From assembly GCA_003602575.1 (NCBI GenBank), contig QQRY01000056.1:1-56734 (forward strand): a stretch of DNA of 56,734 bases, read 5' to 3'. The notes beneath the pieces are model-generated. The model saw only the letters and a program-made list of their open reading frames with translations, was not told the origin of the DNA and made no database searches. Source of the stretch: Candidatus Poseidoniales archaeon (lineage in GTDB: Archaea > Thermoplasmatota > Poseidoniia > Poseidoniales > Poseidoniaceae). The translations under genes and the position numbers were made by a program. Shown here one piece after another: positions 4,815-17,657 of this stretch (within the stretch, counting starts at the first letter, position 1; each line of letters opens with the position of its first letter).

Positions 4815-7601
4815 ATGAGAAATCCATTTTTCATGTTGACAAGTAGAAGTGTCGATAAACCAAAGTCTACATTAGCCATAATATTTGTAATAATATTAGC
4901 ATTATCTTCGGGAGCTAGTCAGCTAGTGTTTGATAATAGTGAAGACGGATTTTTCCCAGACAACGAAACAGTAACGCTACTCAATGAAATTGAGGATGAA
5001 TATCAAGCATCGGTGGATTTCATCAGAGTTATAGATGATATGGAACAAGGGGAACTTCTTGTTGGAGATACTTGGGAACAGTTGGCCTTGACAGAAGCAA
5101 TATTATTGAATGATTCAAATTTCAAAGATTATCATTACCCAATTTTTGGTTCCCAGCCTAACTTTGGAATGGCTAGTTCTGCAATTCAATGGCAAACTAT
5201 CCAAGACCCTGTAAGCGCACAAATTTGGATTTCTCAGGTTACTTCAGCCATTGAGGTTCTGAGAAATTCTAATGACAGTGCATTCAATGAGTCTTTGGAT
5301 AACCTCACTACTACGGCAAATATAATTCCGAAATTGGAACCGATTACCTCTGAAAGATTACTAGCATGGCAGCCAGGCGATGCAAATGCTTGGCTGGCGC
5401 GTCTAGATAGTGGTCAAAATTTAACAACTTCAATCAATGAAACAATTTGGAGGACTTATTCTTTATTTGGTTTCAATTCTGCAAAAACCGAGTTTCAAAA
5501 GGATTTGATGACAGATAGATTAGAACCTATGATTTCAGATCTTTATGCTTTGAAAGGTCAGCAATCAATTGATTATCGAGGTATAATGATTTCTAGCATT
5601 CCTGTTGGAGAAAGAGAGGACCCATGGAATATGTCTGGACCTGTAATTACTACCTTGGCGGTAAGTTCCGACCCTGAAGTCTATGGTTTAGAAGCAAATC
5701 AATTCCCCGTAGTTGAGAAAAACATTAACGAGTGGTCCGGTACTCTACTTGATGAATTAAAACAAGAAACAGGAGACTCCGAATTACGTACTTTTTCTTT
5801 CTCCCAATTTGGTATTGGCGCAACTGAAACTTTGGGTAAAGAAATTGGAATCTTAACAGGTTCAGCCTTCATGCTTCTAGCAATTATTTTATGGTTCAAT
5901 TTCCGAAGTGTTAGGGAAACTGCATATGTTATGATTCTAACAATTTTTGCAATTGGTGCAACCTATGGCCTATCTGGCTGGTTACAAAAGTTGGGCGTAA
6001 ATATGACCTTCAATGGTGCCATGAATTCTATTCCAGTCTTACTTCTTGCCATAGGTGTAGATTATGGCTTACACGTAGTTTTACGCATTCGAGAAGAATT
6101 AAAGGTAGCAGATTCTAAAGATGATATATCACGTCAAACAATTAGAGACTTTAGTTTAGAAGCAAGAAAAATTGCAATTAGAAGAGGTACAATCTTCACC
6201 TCTATTGCTCTTATGATTGCAATCTTCACCGATATGATAGGTTTTCTTTCCTTTAGGTTCTCGGCATTATCATTCCTCCAAGTATTTGGAACAGTTATCG
6301 CAATTGGATTATTCTTTATCTATTTGCTCAGCATCTCAGCATTACCTGCTTTGATGACAATAATCCCTCCAAAGAAACTACCTTTGGACAAGGCTAGTAA
6401 AATTGAAGTTGGCCCTATTGCAAAAGGTCTTGGAGAATTATCTACTAAACCTTGGAAGGTTGGTTTAATCGCGGTAATCCTATTGATGCCGATGTATTTT
6501 GGTTTTCAACAACTTGAAGTTGGATTTGAACAGAGAGATCAGTTTGACCCCAGTATAGAAGTAGTTGCAGATTTCATCTTACTTTCAGATGATTTCCAGA
6601 GTAGTCGTTCACCAATTTACATTGTATTCGATGGAGATATCATTTCACAAAGTGGAAGAGAATCGTGGAACTTAACAATGGCCGCAATAACTGATAGTCC
6701 AGATTCTAATGGGGTTCCAAGTGGTTTATGGAACGTATTAGATGAATCAAGATTACAGGATGAAGTTTTAGAGGAACTCATGAATGGAATCGATAATAAT
6801 AATTCTGGAAGTTGGACTGAACTCTCGGATTGGTTGTTAAATAATCAATCTGGCCGAGATTTGACAAGTGGAATTTTACATTCAAATGGTCAACAGACAT
6901 TGATCTCATTCCAAGCCAATACTTTAGATTGGCAAGCAACCGTTGACTTAGATGCCAGAATAAATGAATTATTACAACAAACAGAAGAACAATTTACCGA
7001 TGAAGGTGATTTGAGGCTTAGTGGTAGAAGTTTAATCAATGCTCAGACCACTTCTGATGTCGCGGCCTCTTCAATTCAATCTACAGCAATAGTTGCTATT
7101 GTGATATTGGTGATGTTGGTTTCAATTCATACAGTTCGACAAAAAGACCTGCAACAAGGTTTTGCTAGAGGATTTGTATCATGGATTCCACTAATGATGG
7201 TCATCGGTTGGGTATACGGTATAATGGGATACACTGGTTATCAGATAAACCCTCAAACAGTTACTATTGGTGCTCTATCTTTAGGTTTGGGCGTAGATTA
7301 TGCAGTTCATTTCACCACTAGATTGGAAGAGGAAGTAGAACATAATCCATTAGGAGGACAACAAGTTTGGGTTGAAAACGCTTCAGCCACAACTGGAAGA
7401 GCAATGTGGGGAGCAGCACTAACTACAGCAGGAGGATTTTCAGTTCTCAATCTTTCAGCATTATTGCCTTTGAGGCTCTTTGGCCAAGCCTTCGTAGTCG
7501 CAATTACCTTGGCTCTGTTATCAAGTTTGATTTTGCTTCCAGCCTTCTATACACCATTTTTGAAGAGTGATTCGAAGAAGTATATCAAGGAGGAAGAATG
7601 A
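4815..7601 (+). CDS. MMPL/RND superfamily transporter
   Basis: A large (928-residue) proton-driven exporter-like membrane protein with the two-fold repeat of the RND superfamily. One helix near residue 17-35 is followed by a large external loop, then a helix bundle at about 340-530, a second external loop, and a second bundle at about 750-920. Each bundle carries the GVDY motif in its second helix: Asp416 in AIGVDYGLH and Asp828 in GLGVDYAVH, the positions expected to relay protons. The family moves lipids, carotenoid-like or hydrophobic compounds; the substrate here is not shown. The stop overlaps the start of the next gene (ATGA), and AAGGAGGA just before it is a strong ribosome binding site for that gene. 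Confidence 0.88.
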   Translation: MRNPFFMLTSRSVDKPKSTLAIIFVIILALSSGASQLVFDNSEDGFFPDNETVTLLNEIEDEYQASVDFIRVIDDMEQGELLVGDTWEQLALTEAILLNDSNFKDYHYPIFGSQPNFGMASSAIQWQTIQDPVSAQIWISQVTSAIEVLRNSNDSAFNESLDNLTTTANIIPKLEPITSERLLAWQPGDANAWLARLDSGQNLTTSINETIWRTYSLFGFNSAKTEFQKDLMTDRLEPMISDLYALKGQQSIDYRGIMISSIPVGEREDPWNMSGPVITTLAVSSDPEVYGLEANQFPVVEKNINEWSGTLLDELKQETGDSELRTFSFSQFGIGATETLGKEIGILTGSAFMLLAIILWFNFRSVRETAYVMILTIFAIGATYGLSGWLQKLGVNMTFNGAMNSIPVLLLAIGVDYGLHVVLRIREELKVADSKDDISRQTIRDFSLEARKIAIRRGTIFTSIALMIAIFTDMIGFLSFRFSALSFLQVFGTVIAIGLFFIYLLSISALPALMTIIPPKKLPLDKASKIEVGPIAKGLGELSTKPWKVGLIAVILLMPMYFGFQQLEVGFEQRDQFDPSIEVVADFILLSDDFQSSRSPIYIVFDGDIISQSGRESWNLTMAAITDSPDSNGVPSGLWNVLDESRLQDEVLEELMNGIDNNNSGSWTELSDWLLNNQSGRDLTSGILHSNGQQTLISFQANTLDWQATVDLDARINELLQQTEEQFTDEGDLRLSGRSLINAQTTSDVAASSIQSTAIVAIVILVMLVSIHTVRQKDLQQGFARGFVSWIPLMMVIGWVYGIMGYTGYQINPQTVTIGALSLGLGVDYAVHFTTRLEEEVEHNPLGGQQVWVENASATTGRAMWGAALTTAGGFSVLNLSALLPLRLFGQAFVVAITLALLSSLILLPAFYTPFLKSDSKKYIKEEE

Positions 7602-8071
7602 TGCAACTCGTTGAAGTTATGTTTTGGTTTTCGTCACTTTGGATAATTCCACTATGGAGTTTGATGTGGTTTCTACCTAGGCACCATATTACTGCAAGAG
7701 TAATGAATGATTTACGAATATGTATTCTGCCACTATTGATTCCTTATGCAGTAATGGTTCTACCTAATTTATTAGATATTTTCATTACTCTTGGTAGCGA
7801 GATGCCGACTCCTGAATTGGTCATAGAATTTTTTCAAGAAGACGAGGTTATATTGATCGGATGGTTACATTTCTTGGCTTTTGATATTCTTGCTGGCAGA
7901 TACATTTGGAAGCGTATGCTAGCCTTTGATAGGCCAATCTATGTTTCTACGCCAATTCTAATCTTGTCGATGATGGTCGCTCCTTTAGGGTTTTTACTGG
8001 GCATAATTGCAACTTGGGATGCCAATGATTCATCAATAGAGATAAAAGATAGATTGCAGAATCATGATTAG
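7598..8071 (+). CDS. ABA4-like (DUF4281) membrane protein
   Basis: A 157-residue protein with four hydrophobic helices. The core WLHFLAFDILAGRYIW (about residues 88-103) followed by MVAPLGFLLG matches the WxHxLxxDLFxxR...GPxGxLL pattern I recall for the DUF4281/ABA4 family, whose plant member is required for neoxanthin formation from violaxanthin. Bacterial and archaeal members have no established activity. It is translationally coupled to the RND transporter (4-base overlap, strong Shine-Dalgarno AAGGAGGA), so the two probably act together, perhaps on carotenoid or other isoprenoid lipids (inference). Confidence 0.7.
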   Translation: MMQLVEVMFWFSSLWIIPLWSLMWFLPRHHITARVMNDLRICILPLLIPYAVMVLPNLLDIFITLGSEMPTPELVIEFFQEDEVILIGWLHFLAFDILAGRYIWKRMLAFDRPIYVSTPILILSMMVAPLGFLLGIIATWDANDSSIEIKDRLQNHD

Positions 8072-8077
8072 GGATAC

Positions 8078-8086
8078 ATTATATGT
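8078..8086 (+). promoter_or_regulatory. TATA box of the YHYH/TSP3 gene
   Basis: CATTATATG is centred about 26 bases before the GTG at 8108, with no Shine-Dalgarno. This supports leaderless initiation at a GTG codon. Confidence 0.55.
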
Positions 8087-8107
8087 CTTTGCAAAATGGT
8101 TTAGTCC

Positions 8108-10420
8108 GTGGACGGGAAAACCACGTTACTAACAGGAATTCTTGCTTTTATCTTAATCGGCGGCGGTTTCTTAACCTTGGTCGTCGATAATATCGAACAA
8201 GAAGAAAACAAAGATGATGATTCTGATTTGGCAGAAAACCCGGAGGATATAATTCCAGTAGATGAGATTCCACAACTATTTTTTGCTGATTTTTCTAAAT
8301 CTTGGGATGATGAAAATGTTACTTTATCTGGATTTATCACCGATGAATCACCAATTACCAGTACAGTTACTATGGAAGTTTTAGATAGTAATCTAATCAC
8401 AATAATTGACCCATTTAATATCTCGGTTTTAGCAGATGGTTCTTGGAGTACTGAAATAGCTGTTTCTACTCCAGGTGAGTGGTTTGTCAAGTCCTCAGTT
8501 GTCGATTCAGCCGGCCAAACTAGTAATTTTACGATTACTGAAATGGAAATCACTGCACCTCAAGAAAATACTGTAGTTATTACTTTCTTGTGGGATGAGC
8601 CAGAAGAGAACAGTTCAATTGGTACATTAACTGGGGTTCTAATTCATAGATTTCCTGAAACATGTTCAGTGGAATACAGACCAAAATATCAGAGCCCAAC
8701 GCTTGATGTAACAGGGGTAATGGATAATTCAACAGGCTCTTATTATATGGAATTTGATACCGATACAGTAAATGCCAATGGAACTATTTTCGCTACTTGT
8801 GGATTATTTTCAGTTTCTTCTTCAATGGTTGAAGTAATTCTACCAATTCCTCCTGAGCCAGCAGGCGATACTGATTTAGATGGTATATTAGATGATGAAG
8901 ACCAATGTGATTCAACCCCATCTGGTGAACCAGTCTATGATACTGGATGCTCAGATTCTGAGACCGATGATGACTTAGATGGTGTGATGAATAGCGACGA
9001 TCAATGTCCAAATACTCCACAAGGAGAAACAGTAGACTTCACAGGCTGTTCATTATCTCAAAAAGATAGTGATGGCGATGGAATAAGTGATGCAGTTGAC
9101 ACTTGTCCAGGGACTCCAGTAGGAGAAATAGCAGACTCAGTAGGTTGCTCAGATTCCCAAAAAGATACAGATGGTGACGGTGTTACAGATGACCTTGACC
9201 AGTGCCCCAATACCCCTGCCGGCGATGTTGTAAATTCCAATGGTTGCACAGTTCCAGATTGGGAACCTGAAGATTCGTGGCAATGTCAAAATGGCCAAGG
9301 GCCTTGGGTAAAGGATCTTAATGGAGATGGCAATTCTTACCAATCCAATACCAATGGAGTAAATAGTGCTGGAGGAGGAGGCTCAGGACCTTGGTTCCAG
9401 TGTGAAGTCTCAGTTACTATAGCGAATGGAGAAATGGTTGTCGATTCCAATGGGATTCCAAATCATGACTTTTTGTCAACTATGGGTTGCTGTGCGAATG
9501 AGGTTAATTTGGAATGGCACATTCCATTAAACCCTGTCAATGATACAAGTGGGGGCCATGATACAACCAATTGTCCAGCATCTACTGGACGCTGGGAATG
9601 TGCACCGGATAGAGGGGCTGTAGCAGTTTCAGTAAATGGAGTACCAATTTACGGGGTTGAAGAAGGCCCAGGTGGAGATGCTATTGCTTTGCATTTTGAC
9701 TATTTTGTAGAAGATAGACAACCCATCTTCTTGGGCCACTGTGCTTCTCATTCTGCCAATGTTAACTTTCACTACCATTATGATTCTCAGTGCTCTGTTT
9801 GGACGCCGGGAGTCGGTGAAACAATAGCCGATTATGATTGGACAGACTTAGATGACACTCAACATAGTCCAATAATCGGTTGGGCTTTTGATGGCTATCC
9901 AATCTATGGAATGTATGGTAATGATGGAAGTGGAGGAATCAAAGCCATTACTTCTTCATATGAAGTTGAAAGAACTCAAGAAAATGGCGACCAAGGTTAC
10001 AATGGTATCGATGATTGGAATTATGTTGCCGGTGTAGGTGATTTGGATGAGTGTAATGGAAGATGGGGCGTAACACCTGAGTATCCAGAAGGAACATATC
10101 ACTATGTTAGTACACCTCTATCCGGTTCATCAAAATTAGTTACTAATACCGATGGTAATCAAGTACCGATGATTGGTATGCCATATTTCTTACTTTGTTA
10201 CCATGGAGTTGCAGACCTTGACGCCCAGCCATCTAATGGACAAGGTGGCGGCGGCGGTGGACCCCGTACAACTCAAACAATGGTCTTGTACGAACATATG
10301 CCTGAACTTCTAGAAGAAACGGAAAATTTAGATGTTAACGGTCAAGAATTATTGTGGAATTCAAGTTTTATCTGGATCGGAATAGTAGCTCTAATTCTGT
10401 TGAGAAAACGTTCAAAGTGA
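8108..10420 (+). CDS. membrane-anchored TSP3-repeat protein with YHYH domain
   Basis: An exported 770-residue protein. In order: a signal peptide/anchor (about residues 5-24), an Ig-like region (to about 250), four TSP3 calcium repeats of the DxCPxTPxGxxVxxxGC type (about 255-385), a Cys/His-rich YHYH domain (about 400-690), a Gly-rich linker, and a C-terminal membrane helix ending RKRSK. The YHYH domain shows GHCASHS, HYHYDSQC, HSPIIGWAFDGYPIYG, LDECNGR and GTYHY, all hallmarks of the Pfam YHYH family. The His pattern suggests metal binding. The start is a GTG with a TATA box 26 bases upstream. The stop overlaps the Shine-Dalgarno of the Sco1-like gene, so the pair is an operon and points to copper (inference). 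Confidence 0.85.
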   Translation: MDGKTTLLTGILAFILIGGGFLTLVVDNIEQEENKDDDSDLAENPEDIIPVDEIPQLFFADFSKSWDDENVTLSGFITDESPITSTVTMEVLDSNLITIIDPFNISVLADGSWSTEIAVSTPGEWFVKSSVVDSAGQTSNFTITEMEITAPQENTVVITFLWDEPEENSSIGTLTGVLIHRFPETCSVEYRPKYQSPTLDVTGVMDNSTGSYYMEFDTDTVNANGTIFATCGLFSVSSSMVEVILPIPPEPAGDTDLDGILDDEDQCDSTPSGEPVYDTGCSDSETDDDLDGVMNSDDQCPNTPQGETVDFTGCSLSQKDSDGDGISDAVDTCPGTPVGEIADSVGCSDSQKDTDGDGVTDDLDQCPNTPAGDVVNSNGCTVPDWEPEDSWQCQNGQGPWVKDLNGDGNSYQSNTNGVNSAGGGGSGPWFQCEVSVTIANGEMVVDSNGIPNHDFLSTMGCCANEVNLEWHIPLNPVNDTSGGHDTTNCPASTGRWECAPDRGAVAVSVNGVPIYGVEEGPGGDAIALHFDYFVEDRQPIFLGHCASHSANVNFHYHYDSQCSVWTPGVGETIADYDWTDLDDTQHSPIIGWAFDGYPIYGMYGNDGSGGIKAITSSYEVERTQENGDQGYNGIDDWNYVAGVGDLDECNGRWGVTPEYPEGTYHYVSTPLSGSSKLVTNTDGNQVPMIGMPYFLLCYHGVADLDAQPSNGQGGGGGGPRTTQTMVLYEHMPELLEETENLDVNGQELLWNSSFIWIGIVALILLRKRSK

Positions 10421-10429
10421 GGTTTATTC

Positions 10430-11083
10430 TTGAATCATAGGATTATGGTTATTTTACTGGTCAGTAATCTGATATTTGCTGGTTGTCTAAGTTCACAAGA
10501 TGATATTTTTGAAGGTCAAGAAATCGAATCAGAGAAGTCCTTTCTGCCTTTCACATTAATCGATTCTAATAACTCAACATATAATTCCACCAATTTTAAT
10601 GGCATGGTTGTTGTTGTAAATTTCTTTTATACTAATTGTCCTGATACTTGTTCGACCGTCACTCCAGATTTGAAAATTCTTCATGATGATTTTTCGAATG
10701 AAATTGGTATTAATCTAACATTCATATCAATTACAGTAGATCCATGGAGAGATGGTCCTAACGACCTCAGTGATTACATGGCTTACTTCAATACCTCTTG
10801 GACATACTTAACCACAGAGGAATTTGTTGATGGTGATTTTTCTTTAATCGAGCAAATCTGGTCTGATTTCGGAATAGGAGTAGTCCTTACTGAAAGTGAT
10901 AATAGCACAACAATAAGTGGTAGAGGTCACACAATTTACTATGATATAGAACATACAGATGGAATAGTAATTATCGGTAAGGATGGTTATCAAAAAGTAC
11001 GCTGGGATGAAAATAATTGGAACCTTGATGGAATCAATAGCGACATCAATACGTTGCTCAAAGAACCCTCAAGTGATTCTTGA
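10430..11083 (+). CDS. Sco1/SenC-type copper chaperone, putative lipoprotein
   Basis: A thioredoxin-fold copper chaperone of the type that supplies the CuA site of cytochrome oxidase or other extracytoplasmic copper proteins. The Cu ligands are visible: Cys70 and Cys74 in CPDTC, and His167 in GRGHTIYYD. ITVDPWRDGP is the usual SCO segment after the beta sheet. The N-terminus is a short hydrophobic signal ending LIFAGC (Cys19), a bacterial-type lipobox, so it is probably lipid-anchored outside the cell. The start is a TTG at 10430 with TGAGGT six bases upstream overlapping the previous stop; ATG 10445 is a weaker alternative. Length 217 is usual for the family. Confidence 0.88.
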   Translation: MNHRIMVILLVSNLIFAGCLSSQDDIFEGQEIESEKSFLPFTLIDSNNSTYNSTNFNGMVVVVNFFYTNCPDTCSTVTPDLKILHDDFSNEIGINLTFISITVDPWRDGPNDLSDYMAYFNTSWTYLTTEEFVDGDFSLIEQIWSDFGIGVVLTESDNSTTISGRGHTIYYDIEHTDGIVIIGKDGYQKVRWDENNWNLDGINSDINTLLKEPSSDS

Positions 11084-14936: not shown

Positions 14937-17657
14937 ATGCGAAAGGCAATTTTTGCTATCTTATTGATGCTTTTCGTTCAGTTCAATGCACCAGTAGTAG
15001 ATGCAGACAATGGCCGTTCAGCAAATGTTGAACTTTCATTAGCAAAATATGACTGGTTTTCAAATGAGACGGTTTCGATAAGCGTTAGAGTTTCAAATAT
15101 TCCATTTGGAGTAGACCTTTATGGAAACTGGGAACTCAAAGATTTCAACAATGATATTGTCGCAAATGGCACCCATATCTTCCAAGCATCAGCCACCACC
15201 ACTCAGTTCAATGTATACATGAACTCATTTTACAATGGTGAGAACTTCTATTATTTTTCGATTGATATTATTGATTCTTCAAACTCTTTGGTGGGGGATG
15301 GAGATATTACTTTGATAGTTTTTCAAAACACTATGATGCCTCAAAGAAATAATTTACTGGTATTTGGGGACTCTCTAAGTGATATGGGTAATGCAAAAAA
15401 TTCTATCCTTAATGTACCCGACGTACCCCCTTATTGGCAAGGTAGATTTTCTAATGGCCAGGTATGGATTGAATATGTTTCACAGGCTTATGGTTTGTCT
15501 ACAACGATAGGTTCGGGAATCGATCAAGGAGATAACCGTGCCTTTGGTGGGTCTCAAACCGGAGTAGGGTATTCCTATATTTTACTGCCTAATGTTGGGA
15601 CTCAAATTTCAAATTATGTGGCCAACGTTCAATCATCATTATCTCCTAATGATGTGGTATCATTATGGTCTGGAGGTAATGATTTTCTTTATGGAACAGC
15701 CAACTCCAATACTATAGTAGCAAATATGGAGTCGCATATTAGAGAATTAGCAGCTGTTGGAGCAACAGAATTCATAATACCTAATCTGCCTCCGCTAGAA
15801 AAAACACCAGAAATACTTGGGAGAAGTCAAAATCAACAGAATTCCATAGCCTCTGAAGTAGTTTCATACAATCAAAAACTATCGTCTTTGATAGGAAATA
15901 TATCAGTCGAATTAGGGTTAGAAATTCATTTTATCGATGCATGGACGCTGTTTAACGATATAGTAGACAATAGCATGGCACTTGGTATAGTCAATACACA
16001 AGATGCAGCTTGTTCAGCATCAGCCACTTTATTGCCTCTTCCGATTTGCAATAGTGCGTCTACATTGGCCAGTAATCCAGATGAATATCTCTTCTTTGAC
16101 AAAGCACATCCAACTAGAGTTATGCATAAATTCATCTCTTATTTTGCTATCCAATCCATCGGCTATGCTGACACCGATGGTGATGGTGTAATGGATAATT
16201 ATGATTTATGTACATGGACAGAGTTTGGTAAATCGGTAGATTTAGATGGGTGTTCTTGGGAACAATTAGATGATGATGGAGACAGTATTGCTAACGGTAT
16301 TGACAAGTGCCCATCAACAGAGTTAGGCGCTGTAGTGGATGTCGATGGTTGCTCTGATGAACAAAGAGATTCTGATGATGATGGGCTAAACGATGCGATA
16401 GATCCATGTCCGTTTAGTGAATTATTAAATGATCATGATTCAGATGGTTGTACAGATAATATCGATGAAGATGATGATAATGACTATGTTTTGGATATCG
16501 ATGATAACTGTCCCAAGGGAATGATTGGAAACCATTCATTAGATTTTGATTTGGATGGATGCAGAGATATCGAAGACAATGACATGGATGGTGACCAATT
16601 ATCTAATGTTGAGGAAGCCGACATTGGTAGCAACCCCCTTGATGAAGATACAGATGATGATGGTTTCATTGATGGTATCGATGAATTTCCTTTAGATTCA
16701 ACAGAGTGGTATGATAGTGATGGAGATGGATGTGGAGATAATTCCGATGACTTCCCAACCGATTCTAGCGAATGTAGCGATTCAGATAATGATGGGTTCG
16801 GCGATAATTCTGATGCTTTCCCAACAGATGTTTCCGAGTGGTTAGATTCAGACAGTGATGGATTTGGAGATAATCGAGATGCTTGTCCAAGTAAACCAGG
16901 AAATTCACTTTCTCCCGAAGGTTGTCCCGACAGAGATGGAGATGGGTTTTCAGATGATACAGATTTATTCCCTAGTGATCCTGATGATTGGGCAGATTTT
17001 GATGGTGATGGCTATGGTGATAATTCAGATTTATTCCCAAGTGACCCAGACGACTGGGCTGATTTAGATAATGATTCATATGGTGATAATCGTGACAGAT
17101 TCGCTAGTGACCCATCGGAATGGAACGATACTGATGGGGATACAGTCGGAGATAATTCAGATTTGTTCCCACTCGATCCCAATGAGTGGTTTGATAGTGA
17201 TGGTGATGGATGTGGAGATAATTCAGATATATGGCCTTTAGACCCGTCAGAGTGCTTAGATAGAGATGTAGATGGGATAGGAGATAATTCAGACTTATTT
17301 CCCGATGATAGGTCTGAATGGAATGATACCGATGGAGATGGTCTAGGAGATAATGCAGACCTTTTCCCGAAGGACTCTAAGGCTAAATTTGATGATGATG
17401 GAGATGGTTTAGCCAATTATTATGACCCATTCCCTAACAACGAAAATATGGATTCATGGTTCGATTTGATACTTAGAATTATTTTGTTTAGTGCAATTAT
17501 TGGAGCAATAGTTTTTGCTGTAAAGAAGAATTCAGAAACCAAACAACCAATTCAATGGAATCAATACAGTGACGAGGAAATGCTAATGGCAGCAGAATCG
17601 AATAATTCTCTGTCAGAAAAGCCAACAGGTCCTCCTCCTCCAGGTTCTTTTCAATGA
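14937..17657 (+). CDS. GDSL/SGNH esterase tethered by a TSP3 calcium-repeat stalk
   Basis: A fusion of a secreted SGNH hydrolase with a long TSP3 stalk, 906 residues. Residues 1-24 are a signal peptide and a beta-sandwich region follows to about 130. The GDSL domain covers about 138-405: Ser146 in FGDSLSD, Asn248 in SGGND, and Asp388/His391 in DKAHPT, giving the full Ser-Asp-His triad with block III Asn. From about 410 to 825 there are some twenty Asp-rich TSP3 repeats, first of the CP...GC kind, then DSDGDGxGDNSDxFPxDPxEW. A membrane helix (about 840-858) and a cytoplasmic tail ending in a Pro-rich PPPPGSF segment close it. Likely an esterase or lipase displayed away from the cell; substrate unknown. 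Confidence 0.9.
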   Translation: MRKAIFAILLMLFVQFNAPVVDADNGRSANVELSLAKYDWFSNETVSISVRVSNIPFGVDLYGNWELKDFNNDIVANGTHIFQASATTTQFNVYMNSFYNGENFYYFSIDIIDSSNSLVGDGDITLIVFQNTMMPQRNNLLVFGDSLSDMGNAKNSILNVPDVPPYWQGRFSNGQVWIEYVSQAYGLSTTIGSGIDQGDNRAFGGSQTGVGYSYILLPNVGTQISNYVANVQSSLSPNDVVSLWSGGNDFLYGTANSNTIVANMESHIRELAAVGATEFIIPNLPPLEKTPEILGRSQNQQNSIASEVVSYNQKLSSLIGNISVELGLEIHFIDAWTLFNDIVDNSMALGIVNTQDAACSASATLLPLPICNSASTLASNPDEYLFFDKAHPTRVMHKFISYFAIQSIGYADTDGDGVMDNYDLCTWTEFGKSVDLDGCSWEQLDDDGDSIANGIDKCPSTELGAVVDVDGCSDEQRDSDDDGLNDAIDPCPFSELLNDHDSDGCTDNIDEDDDNDYVLDIDDNCPKGMIGNHSLDFDLDGCRDIEDNDMDGDQLSNVEEADIGSNPLDEDTDDDGFIDGIDEFPLDSTEWYDSDGDGCGDNSDDFPTDSSECSDSDNDGFGDNSDAFPTDVSEWLDSDSDGFGDNRDACPSKPGNSLSPEGCPDRDGDGFSDDTDLFPSDPDDWADFDGDGYGDNSDLFPSDPDDWADLDNDSYGDNRDRFASDPSEWNDTDGDTVGDNSDLFPLDPNEWFDSDGDGCGDNSDIWPLDPSECLDRDVDGIGDNSDLFPDDRSEWNDTDGDGLGDNADLFPKDSKAKFDDDGDGLANYYDPFPNNENMDSWFDLILRIILFSAIIGAIVFAVKKNSETKQPIQWNQYSDEEMLMAAESNNSLSEKPTGPPPPGSFQ
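16163..17430 (+). repeat. TSP3-coding degenerate tandem repeat
   Basis: The stretch encodes roughly twenty Asp/Asn-rich calcium-binding TSP3 units about 19-23 residues long, within the GDSL protein. GATGGAGATGG-type words recur but are diverged in synonymous positions, so it is a protein repeat more than a recent DNA duplication. Confidence 0.75.

Follow-up and report, generated by a model that had tools for sequence, protein, structure and literature searches.

The 56,734-nucleotide (nt) stretch of DNA analysed here (the window) comes from a Candidatus Poseidoniales archaeon (contig QQRY01000056.1) and carries on its plus strand, between positions 8108 and 11083, two adjoining genes: one for a surface protein that combines a YHYH domain with thrombospondin type 3 (TSP3) repeats, and one for a lipoprotein of the Sco1/SenC type. 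Open reading frames (ORFs) were called mechanically throughout. The features recognised in the pair are as follows (aa, amino acids):

8108-10420, plus strand: YHYH/TSP3 surface protein gene, 770 aa, GTG start, with matches to PF14240 and PF02412
8129-8185, plus strand: N-terminal hydrophobic segment (signal or anchor), aa 8-26, predicted from hydropathy
8867-9247, plus strand: TSP3 repeat stalk of about four units, aa 254-380 (PF02412, E 1.2e-11, and the repeat pattern in the sequence)
9434-10207, plus strand: YHYH domain, with the Pfam match at aa 470-669 and a wider conserved domain at aa 443-700
9464-9466, plus strand: His453, invariant (126/126 aligned rows)
9749-9751, plus strand: His548, invariant (126/126 aligned rows)
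9770-9778, plus strand: His555-Tyr-His557 within the YHYH motif, with His555 and His557 invariant (126/126 aligned rows)
9890-9910, plus strand: DGYPIYG motif with the conserved Asp595
10349-10417, plus strand: C-terminal hydrophobic anchor and basic tail, aa 748-770, predicted from hydropathy
10418-10429, plus strand: overlap of the YHYH stop with the Sco1 Shine-Dalgarno, and the short gap
10430-11083, plus strand: Sco1/SenC-type lipoprotein gene, 217 aa, TTG start, with a match to PF02630
10484-10486, plus strand: Cys19 of a lipobox-like LIFAGC, read from the sequence
10637-10651, plus strand: CPDTC, the Sco1 CxxxC copper/thiol motif, aa 70-74
10952-10954, plus strand: His175 (EHT), in the place of the third copper ligand of Sco1 proteins

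The gene-pair observation made in the first-pass annotation of this DNA is sound, with small corrections. The stop codon of the YHYH gene does lie inside the Shine-Dalgarno of the Sco1 gene, as TGA (10418-10420) overlaps GAGGT (10419-10423) ahead of the TTG at 10430, with an intergenic gap of 9 nt; because of this overlap, the two ORFs are probably translated together. A start at 8078, as originally given, is impossible because an in-frame TAG at 8102-8104 precedes the GTG. Pfam upholds all three domain identities: the YHYH match (PF14240) reaches 114.3 bits against a cut-off of 25 and spans profile positions 2-181 of 193, the TSP3 match (PF02412) reaches 44.5 bits against a cut-off of 25, and the SCO1-SenC match (PF02630) 81.6 bits against 22.8 (E 6.4e-23), the best solved relative of the Sco1 protein being the SCO1 protein of entry 2b7j (E 3.4e-9). 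The two motifs that had been singled out, GHCASHS (aa 543-549) and HYHYDSQC (aa 555-562), are present in the YHYH protein, which contains 20 Cys in all. Immediately 5' of the YHYH gene lies an ABA4-like gene (PF14108, window 7598-8071), found in the same place at two related loci (L057 and L058), and further along the window (14937-17657) a GDSL lipase-like protein carrying long TSP3-like repeats is a second surface protein of such design.

Where the two products would reside had been described as the same outer membrane face. The genome to which the window belongs (G000, 1.97 Mb in 59 contigs) contains an archaeal signal recognition particle (SRP) RNA that scores over its cut-off; an archaeal 16S was not found in this draft. 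Archaeal cells of such a lineage have one membrane. As the genome is archaeal by its SRP RNA, the face in question can only be the outer side of the sole membrane, and although the idea of an outer membrane had to be given up, the shared location was retained: from hydropathy and the lipobox-like motif we infer that the YHYH protein and Sco1 both sit on the outer face of the archaeal membrane.

The association of these two genes extends well past the window. In a sample of 389 archaeal genomes of the phylum, PF14240 matches were found in 76 and SCO1-SenC matches in 214 (172 over the cut-off), and our archaeal working set comprises 78 YHYH loci, window included. A Sco1 gene on the same strand, beside the YHYH gene or one to two genes from it, is present at 45 of these 78 loci, when chance would give well under one by a rough calculation that takes about two Sco1 genes per 1.3-2 Mb genome. 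At 17 of the linked loci Sco1 follows YHYH directly, mostly after a gap of about 10 nt, and at 28 it lies upstream, in many cases as a tandem pair.

Such a pattern could reflect nothing more than two surface-protein genes kept together by descent in one archaeal order, with no cooperation between their products; related genomes are, after all, not independent, and Sco1 loci of a second family (f2) persist in 11 cases without any YHYH gene. Quick trees of the YHYH domain (80 rows, short ones excluded) and of Sco1 (98 rows) speak to this point. The YHYH clade of the window (24 rows) has Sco1 downstream in 17 rows, upstream in 2, absent in 4 and at a contig edge in 1, whereas a clade drawn mainly from family f2 (29 rows) has it upstream in 24, absent in 2 and at an edge in 3; these two clades are separate, and an unlinked clade lies between them. 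In the Sco1 tree the downstream Sco1 of family f1 form a single clade of 24 rows with a support of 97, the larger member of the upstream f2 pair groups beside the COX-type Sco1, and those of L055 and L060 fall elsewhere. Because YHYH thus has Sco1 partners of different lineages, in two gene orders, plain inheritance is not an easy explanation. The short and near-constant downstream gap and the fact that no Sco1 of the f1 lineage was seen without YHYH argue in the same direction, and we consider mere inherited neighbourhood quite improbable.

The f1 lineage appears, in fact, to be dedicated to YHYH. Across 170 genomes of family f1 we compared 44 YHYH rows with at least 63% identity (partial G457 rows and one G347 row were excluded), and 38 of them have a Sco1 gene 190-271 nt 3' of the domain match. 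Among the exceptions, one (L214) has a Sco1 5 nt downstream that is broken into two frames and another (L215) lies at a contig end; the other four are taken up below. Seen from the opposite side, 38 of the 42 window-type Sco1 genes compared directly follow YHYH, two more (L207, L208) are preceded, at a contig end, by what resembles the C-terminal tail of a YHYH protein, and in the last two (L209, L210) the gene itself is truncated by the end of its contig, so that this Sco1 lineage was not seen away from YHYH. The genome of the window has two further Sco1 genes, one located 10 nt after an LVIVD-propeller gene (L089:7202-10406) and one after cox2-cox1-cox3. When loci were chosen by Sco1 size (near 220 aa or near 500 aa), the smaller type followed an LVIVD gene in 17 of 17 sampled loci, three of which (L211, L212 and L213) joined the count after their neighbours were seen, and the large type followed cox genes in 8 of 8, this genome being included in both counts. 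We read these linkage data as a pattern of one Sco1, one client, in which the LVIVD protein may be another client. The LVIVD-propeller protein has many invariant His, and the L089 locus also encodes a divergent secreted protein with an N-terminal His.

Regarding the Sco1 proteins themselves, the CPDTC motif and the distal His175 are what we take to be the copper ligands, and this triad is retained in 86 of 98 aligned rows, the remainder being mostly misaligned, masked or truncated. In one locus (L043:6377-7105) a TSP3-like insert separates the CxxxC half of a Sco1 from its His half. Sco1 is thioredoxin-like and these proteins also give weak Redoxin/AhpC-TSA matches, which raises the alternative of a thiol-disulfide oxidoreductase that folds a Cys-rich TSP3-YHYH protein, with copper uninvolved. 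Besides the 20 Cys of the YHYH protein, such a role would fit the Cys content of the domain, which is about 7-8 in archaea versus 3.6 in bacteria, and two YHYH-linked Sco1 (L052, L053) that have no canonical copper His. The third copper ligand, however, is kept in most of the linked Sco1, and the unlinked archaeal clade (B1) is just as rich in Cys (7.8 per domain) as the linked ones (7.3 and 8.0). In our domain alignment of 126 rows (24 from the window clade, 16 unlinked, 27 f2 and 59 bacterial), the archaeal domains are distinguished by the Cys pairs C461/C462, C489/C498 and C545/C562, irrespective of Sco1 linkage; since C545 and C562 are found in archaea only, with or without a Sco1 neighbour, they look like a disulfide pair. 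Taken together with the bacterial neighbours of YHYH, which are metal-binding rather than thiol proteins, these data lead us to view the oxidoreductase explanation as unlikely.

Those bacterial neighbours were seen in a set made of the best-scoring 80 of 567 confirmed candidates for a Deinococcus query, a set that may miss YHYH proteins nearer to that of the window. The commonest neighbour in these loci (L125-L204), present in 41 of 80, is a secreted protein with a predicted mature N-terminal His, either free-standing or fused to HupE_UreJ_2 (PF13795). Its gene begins no more than 200 nt 3' of YHYH in 30 loci, as measured from mechanical ORF starts, and in the rest it mostly overlaps the end of the YHYH gene; all 10 proteins that were aligned share the Ala-His. 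According to the accessible passages of the anglerase paper (PMC12537917), in which YHYH is not mentioned, RbAng-1a, a protein of this architecture, binds Cu2+ with a Kd of 73.6 nM and has a copper-bound structure at 1.9 Å. For the bacterial N-terminal-His protein a PDB search gave nothing with an E under 0.4 and so did not show homology to RbAng-1a itself. These results suggest that the copper company of YHYH recurs in bacteria via another route, that of anglerase-like N-terminal-His proteins. A predicted N-terminal His, identified by pattern, likewise marks 56 of 58 rows of a small secreted protein found beside Sco1 in archaea, with cleavage judged by eye and one of the 56 (the first row of L244) looking spurious; we had considered this protein (cluster c4) as cupredoxin-like, a candidate that was rejected, there being no Pfam match. 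A Sco1 lies about 2.9 kb off on the opposite strand at two Erythrobacter loci, and a profile match to Sco1 at L190 was rejected because the protein is TlpA-like on reading. The same locus encodes a Formosa algae protein (L190:1416-3434) that, from its sequence, seemingly joins a metallo-beta-lactamase-like part to a YHYH domain and EF-hand-like motifs. Two-component genes are frequent near bacterial YHYH (18 and 16 loci).

Within the YHYH domain, H453, H548, H555 and H557 are invariant in all 126 archaeal and bacterial sequences, and a cyanophage member retains the last three. The claim of a His- and Cys-rich metal motif therefore survived only in part, as H548, H555 and H557 never vary but H544 is not conserved and C545 and C562 are archaeal only and independent of Sco1. 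The model of the window domain was poor (pLDDT 65.3); in that of a bacterial homologue (pLDDT 94.6), judging from its secondary structure, the first of the three and the HYH pair would occupy two short strands that face each other (129-131 and 137-139), so that the three would share one beta-hairpin, as in known three-His sites. Among viral proteins the strong fold matches were for the most part to further members of the YHYH family or to structural proteins of phages, and searching the PDB sequences with the YHYH profile returned no match. The three His and the Asp conserved here are the very set from which, in the passages available of PMC7824862, a Zn site was predicted for phage members, together with a role as a tail-associated hydrolase, and YHYH is located among phage baseplate genes. 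A zinc-dependent hydrolase with Sco1 as a merely co-regulated neighbour would account for these facts. It would leave unexplained, however, the repeated dedicated link to Sco1 and to N-terminal-His proteins, no zinc-handling neighbour was recognised at YHYH loci, and no hydrolase fold in the PDB matches the bacterial model; we therefore doubt that zinc hydrolysis is the better account.

Building on the gene anatomy, the conserved linkage, the dedicated Sco1 lineage and the invariant His described above, we give an even chance to the reading in which the window pair consists of a dedicated copper chaperone and its extracellular copper-protein client. The YHYH protein would be anchored in the archaeal membrane with its YHYH domain held outside on a calcium-type TSP3 stalk; the co-translated Sco1 lipoprotein, on the same face and equipped with its CxxxC motif and distal His, would supply copper to a His-rich site formed by His548, His555 and His557, and perhaps His453; and the loaded YHYH would be a copper-binding or copper-redox protein working outside the cell, any catalytic activity being conjectural. 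YHYH is probably a protein of copper or of another transition metal, and the copper idea of the first-pass annotation is partly supported, as it is strengthened by the conserved dedicated linkage and the bacterial company, but is not general through Sco1.

Several observations weigh against a copper client. No Sco1 was found in the same operon at any of the 80 bacterial YHYH loci, and 33 of the 78 archaeal ones lack it, several of them at contig edges. The unlinked clade (17 rows of family f1) has no Sco1 in 11 rows and a contig edge in 6, and four window-type YHYH of genus g9 are without Sco1. Of the 17 f2 Sco1 loci fetched, the 11 from genomes without a YHYH match keep their LVIVD or N-terminal-His neighbours (the remaining 6 are from genomes with YHYH elsewhere). 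The expected enrichment of Sco1 next to YHYH was thus seen in this archaeal order, but not in bacteria nor in one archaeal YHYH clade; because no bacterial locus has a same-operon Sco1 and f2 Sco1 persist without YHYH, the linkage characterises the order rather than the YHYH family. Furthermore, the invariant His are the same in linked and unlinked clades and so give no pointer to copper, L052 and L053 pair YHYH with a Sco1 devoid of the canonical His, and neither the window model nor the bacterial one has a PDB fold match, hydrolase folds included, so that there is no metal site to borrow from a known fold. A copper role is not obvious for YHYH in phage baseplate proteins, and RbAng-1a also binds Ni2+, with a Kd of 220 nM as given in the accessible part of PMC12537917. 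As for the archaeal loci without Sco1, two (L091 and L092) are bacterial-like YHYH, each carried by a short contig in a different archaeal draft genome, the former 54.5% identical to a Rhodobacterales plasmid protein and the latter adjoining it in the YHYH tree, and both are probably misbinned bacterial contigs.

Proteins with YHYH are present in both bacteria and archaea, in viruses, cyanophages among them, and also in diatoms, as stated in the portion available of PMC11992049. We tentatively extend the copper-client reading to this whole range, in a form that we hold somewhat less than probable: YHYH would represent a novel class of extracellular copper proteins, its site of three or four His set in a fold without a solved relative, working with secreted, copper-capturing N-terminal-His proteins in bacteria and with one or more dedicated Sco1 in these archaea, and the family at large, its phage, giant-virus and diatom members included, would act as a surface enzyme that depends on copper or as a module that handles it. 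PDB searches and the open-licence literature gave no function or solved relative for YHYH proteins, and no link of YHYH to copper or Sco1 was found in titles, abstracts and passages of that literature, subscription papers and preprints being outside its scope. An orphan domain gains a testable metal hypothesis from its dedicated Sco1 in one lineage and its N-terminal-His metal proteins in others and, if that hypothesis is true, the clients of Sco1 would extend past cytochrome oxidase to more extracellular proteins in marine archaea.

Compared with known systems, the window YHYH shares its Pfam family and conserved His set with the phage PF14240 proteins predicted to be Zn hydrolases, but belongs to a TSP3-stalked archaeal membrane protein with a Sco1 and not to a baseplate protein. 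The Sco1 that serves CuA assembly at cytochrome c oxidase is of the same chaperone family, and the genome of the window has one after its cox genes, whereas the window Sco1 is in another clade and adjoins YHYH. Anglerases (Ang-1/Ang-2 with HupE/UreJ-2) resemble the bacterial neighbours, some of which carry HupE_UreJ_2, although by architecture only, and none is present in the window locus. A parallel in arrangement is found in the mtoX-SCO1/senC-mauG clusters of methanethiol oxidase (SBP56), where, in the passages available of PMC5739008, Sco1 lies beside a proposed or shown copper enzyme that it is proposed to mature. Here, too, a Sco1-type gene adjoins a candidate client, but the client is YHYH rather than an SBP56 propeller, no mauG was seen, and its copper is only predicted. 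As in mtoX-SCO1, the adjacency is conserved with one partner, at 45 of 78 archaeal loci and in 38 of 44 cases within family f1.

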